Assembly (NCBI RefSeq): GCF_022827545.1
Contig: NZ_CP094669.1
Span: 4,519,001-4,583,000 of the forward strand
Reading direction: 5' to 3'
Length of the DNA stretch: 64,000 bases
Source of the DNA: Hymenobacter tibetensis
GTDB lineage: Bacteria > Bacteroidota > Bacteroidia > Cytophagales > Hymenobacteraceae
Of this stretch, positions 14,653-17,976 are shown piece by piece. Below the pieces are notes generated by a model, which was given only the letters and a program-made list of their open reading frames with translations, was not told the origin of the DNA and did no database searches. Position numbers and translations under genes: made by a program. How positions within the stretch are numbered: the stretch's first letter is position 1; each line of letters begins with the position of its first letter.

Positions 14653-15123
14653 TTACTGGGGGAGTAGTTGAATCGGACGATTCAAGGTTTCCTCGAGCGA
14701 AATGAGAGTTTCTGTGCGCTCTATACCCTCAATGAGCTGCATCTTATCATGAAGTACGTCGCGCAGGTGTTGCGTGTCGCGGCATACAATGCGAGCAAAA
14801 ATTCCGTAGGCGCCCGTTGTGAAGTGAATGCTCACTACTTCCGGAATCTCACGCAATTGCGCAGCTACGCTGCCATATACGGAGCTTTTCAACAAATAAA
14901 TACCCAAGAAAGCATTCACGCCATAACCGAGCTTTTGGTAGTCGATCTGAAGAGTAGCTCCCTTTACAATGCCAAGTTCTTCTAAGCGCGCCATGCGCAC
15001 ATGCACCGTTCCTCCCGATACATGCACCTTTCTTGCGATTTCGGTATAAGGCATCTTAGCATCTTGCATCAACAGATCTAGGATTTTGCGGTCGGTGTCG
15101 TCAAGTTCGTAATTCTTAGCCAT
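14653..15123 (-). CDS. Lrp/AsnC family transcriptional regulator
   Basis: A 156-residue feast/famine regulator. The N-terminal helix-turn-helix spans about residues 8-55 (LDDTDRKILDLLMQDAK, then VSGGTVHVRMARLEELGIV). The C-terminal RAM/AsnC domain (about 70-145) contains IPEVVSIHFTTGAYGIFARI, the part that binds amino-acid effectors and builds octamers. Members act as activators or repressors of amino-acid metabolism genes. No target can be assigned from the neighbourhood; the gene diverges from the tRNA-like gene at 15274 with an AT-rich gap between them. Confidence 0.92.
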   Translation of the reverse strand: MAKNYELDDTDRKILDLLMQDAKMPYTEIARKVHVSGGTVHVRMARLEELGIVKGATLQIDYQKLGYGVNAFLGIYLLKSSVYGSVAAQLREIPEVVSIHFTTGAYGIFARIVCRDTQHLRDVLHDKMQLIEGIERTETLISLEETLNRPIQLLPQ

Positions 15124-15209
15124 TTTGAGCGATGTGTATTATCTATATTGGAATCTAAACTTCATTTTTTGAAAAATATTGTAAATATCAGAGCAGTTCC
15201 CTGCTAAAA

Positions 15210-15240
15210 TTTTACAATTAGATTCAACTTACTAAATTTG
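15210..15240 (+). promoter_or_regulatory. Predicted promoter of the tRNA-like gene
   Basis: TTTT at 15210-15213, 19 nt, then TAAATTTG at 15233-15240, an exact match to the -7 consensus TAnnTTTG. The start site would be near 15244, giving a 5' leader of about 30 nt before the acceptor stem. Confidence 0.55.
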
Positions 15241-15273
15241 TCATAATCTCATGCGAACGGCTGAGGGTATTCT

Positions 15274-15388
15274 TGTAGAATGATGAAACTGGCAGACATA
15301 CCCTCCTCTCTCGGGGGTGGTGATTCGGGAAAAACTGGTCCGGCGGCCGGCTAACTACACCGTGGAGGTTCGAATCCTTCTTCTACAG
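15274..15388 (+). tRNA. Non-canonical type II tRNA-like gene, anticodon CUC, enlarged variable arm
   Basis: A complete cloverleaf can be folded by hand. The acceptor stem 15274-15280 pairs with 15381-15387 over 7 perfect bp; position 73 is G and no CCA is encoded (CGA follows). The D arm has stem ATG/CAT and loop AAACTGGCAGA with the GG pair, very like tRNA-Leu. The anticodon stem CCCTC/GGGGG has one G-U and the loop CTCTCTC has U33 and anticodon CUC (15308-15310). The T arm is GGAGG-TTCGAAT-CCTTC with one G-U. The variable region is about 46 nt (15318-15363), closed by GGTG/CACC and containing CCGGCGGCCGG; normal type II arms are about 10-23 nt. CUC would read Glu GAG codons, yet the body is Leu/Ser-like and nucleotide 37 is a pyrimidine. 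It is either a specialised tRNA, a non-decoding tRNA-like RNA, or a decayed tRNA-Leu. Confidence 0.65.
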
Positions 15389-15777
15389 CGACTGGGTAGA
15401 TTATTGTGAGGAGGGAAAACCGGGACGTATCTGGGTGGGTGCGTTCCTTTTCAAGGGGCGGCATCTGGGTGGGTGTCGCCTTTTTGTTTGCTGTAGGTTC
15501 GCCCAATTCCAAGCGTTTAGGTCTCCCATACAGACACCTTTACCTGGAATCGGCTGCAAAGAAATGCAAATCTTCTGGTCAACCCTACGTTAAATTCCAA
15601 CAAAGAGCCCAGCTAGCAGCAATTGTTGCAAGCTGGGCTCTTCCGTTTGAGAACGACTAGAGTACTGCAAATCCCACTACTTCCAGTAAGTTTCGACTGC
15701 AGTACAGCTTCAACTGGTGAGTGAGGCAACCACCTAAAGCGGCGCTTTACCATCCTGGTAGCCATACCCCTCAGCAC
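15389..15777. other. Intergenic stretch after the tRNA-like gene
   Basis: 389 bp with no convincing gene. It has a 13-bp direct repeat ATCTGGGTGGGTG at 15429-15441 and 15463-15475, and the hairpin described separately at 15603-15642. An 84-codon frame at 15406-15660 runs straight through that hairpin and has no protein-like pattern. Confidence 0.4.
15603..15642. terminator. Long hairpin terminator
   Basis: Outer arms AAGAGCCCAGCT (15603-15614) and AGCTGGGCTCTT (15631-15642) pair over 12 bp; the inner part (about 15617-15629) also pairs around CAATTG. It lies between the tRNA-like gene and the convergent dsbD gene and could terminate either. Confidence 0.65.
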
Positions 15778-17976
15778 CTATCGTGTTGCGACTGGTTGCG
15801 TTTGCTGCCGGTAACTAGCCAAGCCGGCATCCAGAAACCGAACGAATGCTTCTGCATCGGGCTCGTAGGCGACGGGGGCGGTTAGCGTATGCTGCAAATC
15901 AGCGGGAGAGGTGGGGTTGAGCAACACGTAGAAGGGCTGCGCATTTACATTGAAGCCTGTTAGCTGAAGGTCGGCATTTTTCTTGCCCAGCGTGGTTTTT
16001 TGCTTGCCGTCGTGGCGGGAAACGTAGTGCTCGGAAGCTGGCAGATCGGTTTTATCGTCCACGTAGAGTGCTACAACCACGTAGTCTTCGCGCAGGCGCT
16101 TCAGCACTTGCGGATTACTCCACACAGTAGCTTCCATCTTGCGGCAGTTCACGCAAGCATGACCCGTGAAATCGATGAAGATGGGCTTGTTTAAGGCACG
16201 AGCGCAACGCTGTGCTTGCTCTAAATCAAAGAAACCCTGCAACCCATGGGGAAGCTCCAAGAACTCACTGTAACGAGGTGCTTCGCAGAGCGCATTGGCG
16301 GTGGTAGCGGCGGTGGTTGCAGGGGCAGCAGGAGAAGCTAGGGTGAAGTCGCGGCTGGTTTGTGGGGGCAAGTAACCCGCCAGCAGCGGCAGTGGGGCGC
16401 CAAATAGGCCCGGAATTAAGTACGTCATGAAGCTGAAAGCCAGCACAGCCATTAGCAGCCGACCTACGCTGAGGTGCGCTAAGTCGGAGTCATGCGAGAG
16501 CTTAAAGCGGCCCAGCAGGTATAGCCCTAGCAAACCAGACAGCGCAATCCAGAGCACCAAATAAATGTCGCGGGGGAGCAAGTTCCAGTGGTAGGCTAAG
16601 TCAACCATGCTAAGGAATTTCAGCGCCAGCATCAGTTCCACAAAGCCAAGCACCACTTTCACGGTGTTCAGCCAGCCACCCGAGCGAGGCAAGCTTTTCA
16701 ACCAAGCTGGAAAAATAGCGAACAGCGTGAATGGCAACGCAAAGGCCATGGAGAAGCCCAGCATGCCAACGACTGGGGTAATTCTTTCTCCACGCGAAGC
16801 TAAGCCTAGAATACTAGCTACGATAGGGCCTGTACAGGAGAACGACACTACCACCAACGTGAGGGCCATAAAGAACACGCCCCCCCAGCCACCTTTGTCG
16901 GCTTGGGCATCAATCTTATTGACTACACCATGCGGCAGCGTGATTTCAAAGAGGCCCAGAAAGGAAAGCCCAAACACCACAAATACCACGAAAAAAATCA
17001 GGTTGGGCAGCCAATGTGTCGCTATAAGGTTCGGACCGTCTTCGCCCAGCAAGGCCGCTACTACCACACCTACCAGCACATAAATCACAATGATGCTGAG
17101 GCCATACACAACGGCTTTCAAAATGCCACGCTGCCGACTATCATTGCCGCTCGTGAAAAACGAGACAGTCATGGGAATCAACGGAAACACGCACGGGGTA
17201 ATTAGTGCGCCTAGTCCAAACAGGAACGCGCCGAATGCAAAAGCCAACAAACCGCCTTTGCTAGGGTCCGTTTCTACAGCGTGAGGAGCAGGCACAGCGG
17301 AAGCTGCGGTAGCAGTAGCAGCAGTAGCTTCAGTAGAGGAATGGGCAGCGGTTGCAGTATCAGTGGAAGCGGCTACGGAAGGAGCAGCAGGAGCAGTGGC
17401 AGCAGTGGAAGGCGAAGCAGGAGCGGCTACTGCCCCAGTAGGAGCACCGGGTTTGCTGGCTTTGTTGGGAGTGCTAGCGGGAACGGCGGTTCCCGTCACG
17501 ATGAGGGGGCCGAATTTGAGCGTTTCGTCGCCAGGGATGCAGCGGCCGTCGATGTCGGTGCAGGTTTGGTATTGCACGTCCACTTCTACGGTGAGGGGCC
17601 CAGGCTGCAACACTCGAATGCGTTGCCGTATCTGGCCGGTCTTATCGAAGTAGGTGATGTCCCCTTTCCACGTCTCGTCGAATTTCTTTTTCGAGTTGAT
17701 GGATTTTGGTTGTCCTACGAGTTCGTAAGCGGGACTTTTGGTGAAGTTAAATGTGAAAGCCGTGGGCCCCAGGTCGGGGTCGAAGTCGGTGGCGTAGAGG
17801 TGCCAGGTATCGTCGATGCGGGCATTGACGATGAGGTCCACTTCCTCACCTGCTTTTGCTGTGGTCTGGCTGAGCGCCGTGGAAAGCGTGGTAGGCTTCA
17901 GTATTTGGGCCGTAGCCCCGGCCGCCGTGACGAGCACGAGCAGCAGACCCAGCAGAATAGTCTTGAGGAAAGTCAT
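15778..17976 (-). CDS. dsbD: Protein-disulfide reductase DsbD family (DsbD N-terminal, CcdA-type and thioredoxin domains)
   Basis: A 732-residue inner-membrane protein that carries reducing power from cytoplasmic thioredoxin to the periplasm. The ATG at 17976 gives a normal signal peptide (MTFLKTILLGLLLVLVTAAG). An earlier in-frame ATG at 18033 is rejected because its 19 extra residues cover a promoter-like ACCTTTG box. The periplasmic DsbD N-domain is at about 25-165, an Ala/Ser/Thr/Pro linker follows to about 235, then eight membrane helices. The two redox cysteines of this domain are in TPCVFPLIP (near 260) and SFSCTGP (near 379). The C-terminal thioredoxin-like domain has CVNC near residue 605. 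All redox centres are present. Confidence 0.92.
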   Translation of the reverse strand: MTFLKTILLGLLLVLVTAAGATAQILKPTTLSTALSQTTAKAGEEVDLIVNARIDDTWHLYATDFDPDLGPTAFTFNFTKSPAYELVGQPKSINSKKKFDETWKGDITYFDKTGQIRQRIRVLQPGPLTVEVDVQYQTCTDIDGRCIPGDETLKFGPLIVTGTAVPASTPNKASKPGAPTGAVAAPASPSTAATAPAAPSVAASTDTATAAHSSTEATAATATAASAVPAPHAVETDPSKGGLLAFAFGAFLFGLGALITPCVFPLIPMTVSFFTSGNDSRQRGILKAVVYGLSIIVIYVLVGVVVAALLGEDGPNLIATHWLPNLIFFVVFVVFGLSFLGLFEITLPHGVVNKIDAQADKGGWGGVFFMALTLVVVSFSCTGPIVASILGLASRGERITPVVGMLGFSMAFALPFTLFAIFPAWLKSLPRSGGWLNTVKVVLGFVELMLALKFLSMVDLAYHWNLLPRDIYLVLWIALSGLLGLYLLGRFKLSHDSDLAHLSVGRLLMAVLAFSFMTYLIPGLFGAPLPLLAGYLPPQTSRDFTLASPAAPATTAATTANALCEAPRYSEFLELPHGLQGFFDLEQAQRCARALNKPIFIDFTGHACVNCRKMEATVWSNPQVLKRLREDYVVVALYVDDKTDLPASEHYVSRHDGKQKTTLGKKNADLQLTGFNVNAQPFYVLLNPTSPADLQHTLTAPVAYEPDAEAFVRFLDAGLASYRQQTQPVATR

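Follow-up and report, generated by a model that had tools for sequence, protein, structure and literature searches.

In bacteria, the determinants of tRNA-Asp are G73, G10, G34, U35, C36, and C38; amidation of Asp-tRNA-Asn depends on the determinant U1-A72 and on the antideterminants G1-C72 and U20a, and an aminoacyl-tRNA synthetase, tRNA and amidotransferase can join in a complex, the transamidosome (PMC9976931). Why bacteria having both AsnRS and GlnRS keep the amidotransferase GatCAB is discussed in a survey of 547 genera, in which the enzyme is regarded as possibly vestigial in delta-proteobacteria that also have asparagine synthetase (PMC4206432). Expression of asnA in E. coli is activated by the regulator AsnC, except in the presence of asparagine (PMC4482635). 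Among tRNA-like RNAs, tRNAOther of B. cereus is described as not serving translation (PMC3399842), and Clostridia, Proteobacteria, and Acidobacteria are the hosts of allo-tRNAs named in a review (PMC7609411).

An earlier note on the window, that is, the whole stretch of 64,000 nucleotides analysed here, had pointed to a complete tRNA-like fold of type II with a leucine-like D arm, G73, a pyrimidine at position 37, and an oversized variable arm. All of these traits were borne out: every arm was found on the forward strand (Table 1), with compensatory changes across copies of the genus. In this RNA, called tRL below, C74 is encoded at 15389 and CCA is not encoded, and the D loop reads GGCAGAC, with no U apparent after GG on a provisional numbering of U20a. 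Within the variable arm, a conserved internal loop (GGGAnAAA/CTAAC) separates the 4-bp stem, which is GGTG/CACC in the window copy and GAAG/CTTC in others, from a fast-evolving apical hairpin.

Table 1. Features of the tRL locus, in window positions.
Feature	Position	Strand	Basis or remark
tRNA-like RNA (tRL), U1 to G73	15274..15388	+	sequence, alignment; covariance model R1, 136.1 bits
tRL acceptor stem TGTAGAA/TTCTACA	15274-15280/15381-15387	+	7 bp, starts with U1-A72
tRL D stem, 3 bp, GG within loop	15283-15285/15297-15299	+	
tRL anticodon stem	15301-15305/15313-15317	+	
tRL anticodon loop CTCTCTC (anticodon CTC, T37)	15306..15312	+	no variation at 35, 36, 38 among counted copies; only pyrimidines at 37
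tRL variable region, 46 nt	15318..15363	+	
Variable-region stem, 4 bp	15319-15322/15358-15361	+	alignment
Variable-region apical hairpin, covarying	15335-15340/15345-15350	+	alignment
tRL T arm, canonical, with TTCGAAT	15364-15380	+	
tRL G73	15388	+	
Divergent AsnC-type regulator gene, 156 aa	14653..15123	-	NCBIfam, PDB match, locus survey
Shared divergent intergenic region	15124..15273		imperfect inverted repeat TTGTAAAT...ATTTTACAA
TAAATTTG, TAnnTTTG box	15233..15240	+	33 nt upstream of tRL
Hairpin 1 of the 3' module, apex ATCTGGGTGGGTG	15422..15447	+	found only in loci of this genus
Hairpin 2, same apex ATCTGGGTGGGTG, then T5	15454..15485	+	terminator-like transcript end

Searches for ordinary tRNAs passed over the long form of this RNA. 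The sole ARAGORN call in the window was one tRNA-Arg; an Rfam search of positions 14800-15900 gave no match to the tRNA family (RF00005) at E values up to 10, and nine further tRL loci gave no tRNA match at the gathering threshold. Folded alone, tRL did not form a cloverleaf, and its minimum-energy structure was no better than those of shuffled sequences (z +0.58; 138 of 200 shuffles equalled or bettered it), which is why its reality is argued here from comparison. In a MAFFT alignment of 23 genus copies (A1), the fold comprised 32 pairs in seven helices, with 97.6% of cells paired versus 89.5% in shuffles, and 12 pairs had changed on both sides; the covariation score of 0.286 (0.135 in shuffles) was reached by none of 500 shuffles, and a shift of the pairing partners by 1 to 3 alignment columns lowered pairing to 46.5 to 57.0%. 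The stems are thus kept by compensatory change and do not vary at random as in a pseudogene; the proposed check of relatives and of the variable-arm stem revealed a family present in most genomes of the genus, whose apical hairpin covaries. Judged by this comparison, the window tRL is a complete tRNA-like RNA, not a pseudogene. A decaying tRNA-Leu, as the earlier note had also considered, or a mobile-element remnant is barely credible: the D arm does resemble tRNA-Leu(GAG) of the window genome by eye, and some members of the genus do harbour decayed copies, but compensatory change, the promoter box, the phylum-wide spread and the conserved divergent neighbour argue otherwise, and the covariation in A1 contradicts decay for the window copy. 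Descent from a type II, leucine-like tRNA is nevertheless probable.

The covariance model R1, built from the 23 genus copies and giving ordinary tRNA-Leu about 52 bits, was applied to 101 genomes of the genus. The long form reached at least 113 bits in 70 of them and 67 to 85 bits, as a weaker long form, in four (G074, G099, G017, and G089); in 21 the sole form, of 80 nt and with a short variable loop, scored 63 to 69 bits, and six (G004, G016, G027, G030, G045, and G088) had scores at tRNA-Leu level only, three of these holding a recognisably decayed tRL (L052, L057, and L058). A DNA search with window positions 15240-15490 matched 96 of the 101, many matches being the 3' hairpins or short pieces alone. 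Short forms (20 loci, L240-L259, plus L068) keep the loop CUAUCUC, U1-A72, and G73; ARAGORN called L068 as tRNA-Asp(atc) and called none of ten accompanying long-form loci. In the order sample, 170 of 241 genomes had a best E of 1e-16 or lower, a cut adopted in place of a tally of 240 of 241, which was set aside because of the score that tRNA-Leu obtains with the model. In the phylum sample, 39 of 395 genomes were positive (E 1e-15 or better), three of them outside the window's class; a fortieth match (G647) was an ordinary tRNA-Leu and was removed.

Moreover, a pattern scan of named genomes returned at least 119 stretches, and among the matches listed were Hymenobacter, Pontibacter, Spirosoma, Dyadobacter, Emticicia, Cyclobacterium, Algoriphagus, Echinicola, Fulvivirga, Ekhidna, and Saprospiraceae, together with one Chitinophaga MAG, two Flavobacteriales MAGs and one Ignavibacteriales MAG. 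In 80 listed loci of these at least 119, the model found 103 tRL matches. Arrays are frequent, with seven copies in L101 (one with masked bases), six each in L102, L106, and L111, and five in L105 and L181, and single copies free of masked bases reach 197 nt. In titles and starts of abstracts of the open-licence PMC literature, no description of tRL was found. By these searches, tRL is an uncatalogued RNA family, spread over many Bacteroidota and with no match in Rfam. The window genome has a second tRL (G000:C1:880054-880172, locus L031), identical over 115 nt but with different flanks; in G009, G056, G023, and G064, second tRLs are 98 to 100% identical to the window tRL, above the AsnC-linked copies of the same genomes, and this near-identity suggests shared constraint or gene conversion.

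Nucleotide conservation was counted in 207 distinct copies, leaving out L275 (a tRNA-Leu), L099 (part of L101), and the truncated L186. In the acceptor stem, U1-A72 was present in 206 copies, G2-C71 in all, and U3-A70 in 205, followed by pairs 4 to 7, which vary and are nearly always still paired; G73 occurred in 207/207. In the anticodon loop, U35, C36, and C38 were each present in 207/207, and position 37 was always a pyrimidine (U in 192, C in 15). By contrast with these fixed sites, U33 was kept in 171 copies, and position 34 was G in 147, A in 39, C in 14 (including the window copy), and T in 7, differing even within one array, since L101 holds both CTTTCTC and CTCTCTC. Because some of these copies had been selected with a pattern that itself prescribes nucleotides 35, 36, and 38 as well as a pyrimidine at 37, the 109 copies that the model had detected independently of it were counted again: all 109 have U35, C36, C38, U1-A72, and G73; the model, too, favours its seed sequences.

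Set against the published determinants, tRL carries G73, U35, C36, and C38 of the AspRS set throughout, with and without pattern selection, and G34 in the 147 copies mentioned; G10 is found in only 39 of 207, and in the place of G1-C72 stands U1-A72, the feature of GatCAB substrates. The commonest loop, CUGUCUC, may be compared with CUGUCAC in tRNA-Asp of the window genome. Within that genome, G73 belongs only to Asp, Asn, and Trp tRNAs (by eye), and Leu, Ser, and Glu tRNAs have A73; the description of G73 as serine-like in the earlier note does not hold there. All 38 distinct tRNAs of the window genome have a purine at position 37, and 37 of them have U33, the exception being tRNA-Val(GAC). 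This ordinary tRNA (L298) carries C33; with U33 missing from a normal tRNA, decoding is argued against more strongly by pyrimidine 37. The central contrast is that the invariant sites of tRL are mostly those that AspRS and GatCAB are reported to read, whereas those needed by the ribosome are not kept.

In this context, an ordinary, though odd, elongator tRNA for GAN codons is highly improbable. Its complete tRNA fold, the majority of copies with U33 and the C33 of a normal tRNA-Val(GAC) would be compatible with such a role, but no copy among 207 has a purine at 37, the anticodon is not fixed, copies grow up to 197 nt, and the host already has normal Asp and Glu tRNAs. The idea that a charged form mistranslates GAG is likewise unsupported, given that the family has no constant nucleotide at position 34 and that 36 of 207 copies lack U33. 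What the comparison of copies favours is the other suggestion of that note, namely that the RNA may not decode and has another role, as aminoacyl donor or regulator; the family is almost certainly real and non-decoding.

One such role would be that of a permanently uncharged regulator or decoy, which might for instance titrate a tRNA-binding protein or anticodon nucleases, with the variable arm or the loop as the active part. Variation at loop positions 33 and 34 would suit a decoy, as would the wide variation of the variable arm, where GGG(T/A)NGACCAC recurs in 55 of the 228 distinct sequences from alignments A1 to A4 (e.g., L105, L118, L127, L138, and L260). Yet the short form replaces the long one in 21 of 101 genus genomes, and since it keeps the loop, U1-A72, and G73, the variable arm looks dispensable there; furthermore, the invariant sites coincide with published synthetase and amidotransferase determinants. 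We therefore regard a decoy as quite unlikely. In some two-copy arrays (L196, L264, and L274), the motif GGG(T/A)NGACCAC is present in one copy and absent from the other.

One gene recurs in the neighbourhood of tRL. A gene of the Lrp/AsnC type was held by 120 of 201 tRL loci (a total that includes the tRNA-Leu locus L275), divergent and within 500 nt in 120/120, and these loci span at least twelve family labels; they include near-duplicates, and 102 are left without near-identical intergenic regions. No AsnC gene was present in 75 loci with at least 700 nt upstream, of which 53 are long-form loci (L099, the piece of L101, among them), 21 are short forms, and one is L275. AsnC was the best of all NCBIfam models for the window regulator (156.8 bits, below the equivalog cut-off of 227; Lrp 45.6) and also for ten regulators from other tRL loci (150.9 to 180.0 bits; 11 of 11 in all), and the best PDB match of the window regulator was E. 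coli AsnC (2cg4, 117.6 bits; next 83.7). Among the best 25 gene clusters and the locus ORFs inspected, no other neighbour was conserved across families. Two lineages carry, downstream of the AsnC gene (L107 4792-7019 and L118 4896-7182), translations that look by eye like SufB and SufC.

A TAnnTTTG box, presumably the Bacteroidota-type -7 box, lies within 70 nt upstream of tRL in 91 of the 120 AsnC-linked copies (mean of single-base shuffles, 4.5). The earlier note was right that such a box exists in the window, as TAAATTTG; placed just upstream in that note, it lies 33 nt from tRL, not immediately before it. Spaced inverted-repeat pairs were found in 11 of the 102 intergenic regions left after removal of near-duplicates (shuffle mean, 0.6), and the window pair TTGTAAAT...ATTTTACAA is a candidate AsnC operator, on suggestive grounds only. 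Where the two genes are linked, control of tRL by AsnC is very probable from this arrangement.

At the other end, the tandem-hairpin apex ATCTGGGTGGGTG had an expectation of 0 in shuffles. Both hairpins (15422-15485) are kept beside asnC in loci where tRL is decayed or was not found (L051-L053, L064-L066, L069, and L070) and, persisting without an intact tRL, have the appearance of an independent element, either a small RNA or a protein-binding site.

A carrier of aminoacyl groups outside translation could also serve another pathway (cell-envelope, peptide, or lipid modification) or bear a different amino acid (Glu loaded by GluRS, or Ser by SerRS). The precedent of tRNAOther (PMC3399842) and the type II shape are in keeping with this, as is position 34, which is C or A in the genus copies of A1, CUC being a Glu anticodon. 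Nonetheless, tRNA-Ser and tRNA-Glu of the window genome have A73, the regulator is of the AsnC type, and only the AsnC gene spans several families among the best 25 gene clusters; we consider such a carrier rather unlikely.

Since tRL keeps U1-A72, it was predicted to occur together with GatCAB, whose presence was read from GatB alone. Among 40 hand-picked genomes, GatB was found in 24/24 with tRL versus 2/16 without; AsnRS was present in all 40, and GlnRS in 16 of the 24 and 15 of the 16. When only the 31 genomes having both synthetases are considered, GatB occurred in 16/16 with tRL versus 1/15 without. In the 395-genome phylum sample, all 39 tRL-positive genomes had GatB, and none of 80 genomes lacking GatB had tRL. 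Within the window's class, GatB was present without a tRL match at threshold in G041 (which has the short form), G363, G410, G471, and G515, and outside this class GatB is common without tRL. In families f23 and f24, tRL and GatB are mostly present or absent together (G324, G339, and G433 lack both), G410 being an exception. The link between tRL and GatB is, in part, phylogenetic, and Fisher values for these counts, which take no account of common descent and, for the class, count 60 unlisted GatB-negative genomes as its members, are given no weight here.

Asparagine enzymes bear on the same question. AsnB matched in 38 of the 40 hand-picked genomes, and the idea of tRL as sole asparagine route in general was dropped on that account; one tRL-positive genome (G211) had neither an AsnA nor an AsnB match. 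Replacement of asnA by tRL was also considered and proved uninformative, AsnA being found in 2 of 24 genomes with tRL (one below the cut-off) versus 1 of 16 without. A copy of tRNA-Asn with U1-A72 was present in 20/20 readable genomes of 26 searched, including four that lack GatB (G324, G339, G343, and G433), which refutes the notion that GatCAB is left without such a tRNA-Asn in tRL-positive genomes. Because tRNA-Asn carries U1-A72, GatCAB has another possible substrate, and this pair is not special to tRL. The window genome is the exception, with G1-C72 in its tRNA-Asn, and it lacks GlnRS, as does its lineage, so that GatCAB is explained there by Gln-tRNA. With GlnRS absent, G1-C72 in tRNA-Asn, and C34 in tRL, the RNA may be drifting from its ancestral role in this genus, which fits the decayed and short forms found there. 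In G221 (L333), ARAGORN gives two tRNA-Asn genes with a CCCCGATAGCTATCGGGG hairpin inserted in the variable region, beside a normal one.

The same conserved nucleotides and GatB co-occurrence would also agree with a scaffold or effector that binds AspRS by its loop and GatCAB by U1-A72 and assembles or tunes the transamidosome on tRNA-Asn, without being an acceptor that forms product. The U1-A72 of tRNA-Asn in the 20 other genomes read would fit this, unlike the G1-C72 of the window genome, and the published transamidosome is itself a synthetase:tRNA:amidotransferase complex (PMC9976931). A scaffold is unlikely, however: tRL retains G73, C74, and acceptor pairs 1 to 3, which exceeds what a scaffold would seem to need, and arrays suggest dosage of a substrate.

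Comparison across genomes shows the fold and its conserved nucleotides, the divergent orientation of linked AsnC genes, the promoter box, the arrays, and the shared occurrence with GatB; from it we arrive at a best explanation in which charging and amidation are inferred: tRL as an AsnC-controlled, non-decoding acceptor of aspartate that is amidated by GatCAB. We hold it tentatively, with somewhat less than even confidence, and regard the scaffold, the other carrier, and the uncharged regulator as its serious competitors. AspRS would load aspartate on tRL via G34 (where kept), U35, C36, C38, and G73, and GatCAB would read U1-A72 and convert Asp-tRL to Asn-tRL. The lost decoding features, namely pyrimidine 37, the drift of U33, and the giant variable arm, would keep this Asn-charged RNA with an Asp anticodon off the ribosome, and it could therefore act as a donor of asparagine, or of an asparaginyl group, with no mistranslation of Asp codons. 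The AsnC-type regulator, transcribed divergently and presumed to sense asparagine, would switch tRL on when asparagine is short, as with asnA in E. coli. Several findings weigh against parts of this proposal. Of 207 copies, 60 have lost G34, on which AspRS depends strongly, and C34 weakens the predicted AspRS identity of the window copy; G10 is scarce, and the G1-C72 of bacterial tRNA-Asp is absent from tRL. The 53 long-form loci with at least 700 nt upstream and no AsnC gene also count against it, as do the six genus genomes without a tRL-level match, the wide presence of AsnB, the U1-A72 of tRNA-Asn, the Gln-tRNA role of GatCAB in the window genome, and the C33 of a normal tRNA there.

A further step is possible but doubtful, namely that tRL is a dedicated non-decoding RNA cofactor, on which aspartate is charged and amidated and from which asparagine is released to metabolism, with AsnC setting the dosage. 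If true, this would explain why Bacteroidota with AsnRS and GlnRS keep GatCAB, and why synthetase determinants are kept and decoding ones lost. In genomes having both synthetases, tRL is a concrete candidate substrate of GatCAB, and makes the question of GatCAB retention testable in Bacteroidota. Were charging and amidation to hold, a tRNA would here have become a biosynthetic carrier; in any case, tRL offers a natural experiment on which nucleotides synthetase, amidotransferase, and ribosome each need.

Two other candidate functions were dropped. In a leader/anticodon switch, GAGGGTAT (15263-15270), complementary to ATACCCTC (15298-15305), pairs with it in the minimum-energy fold, but was given up because the leader is not conserved in relatives. 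Mimicry of the anti-Shine-Dalgarno sequence by the stem-loop CCCUCCUNUCU, which resembles a 16S 3' end, was abandoned since L062 and L108 change those bases with compensation.

Compared with known systems, tRL resembles the type II bacterial tRNA-Leu in its 7-bp acceptor stem, 5-bp T stem, and variable stem, and the D arm TGGTGAAACTGGCAGACACGCC of many tRLs is, by eye, one base off tRNA-Leu(GAG) of the window genome, the window copy differing more. Unlike tRNA-Leu, it has G73 instead of A73, the loop CUNUCYC, U1-A72, and a variable region of at least 46 nt with a conserved internal loop. Allo-tRNAs (8/4 and 9/3) are likewise unusual tRNA-like RNAs with long arms, GUC being described among their frequent anticodons (PMC7609411), but the 7-bp acceptor and 5-bp T stems in A1 give tRL a 7/5 branch, not 8/4 or 9/3. 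With B. cereus tRNAOther, compared by description only, tRL would share a place outside translation (PMC3399842), although tRL is spread over Bacteroidota, linked to AsnC, and often arrayed. The GatCAB substrates tRNA-Asn and tRNA-Gln share U1-A72 with tRL, and tRNA-Gln of the window genome also begins with UGU, paired with ACA; tRL, a putative substrate, differs in an Asp-like anticodon and in being apparently no decoder. Finally, tRNA-Asp departs from tRL, which has U1-A72 instead of G1-C72, pyrimidine 37, a type II shape, G10 mostly absent, and C34 in the window copy, yet the two agree in G73, U35, C36, and C38, in G34 for 147 of 207 copies, and, but for one nucleotide, in the loops CUGUCUC and CUGUCAC.
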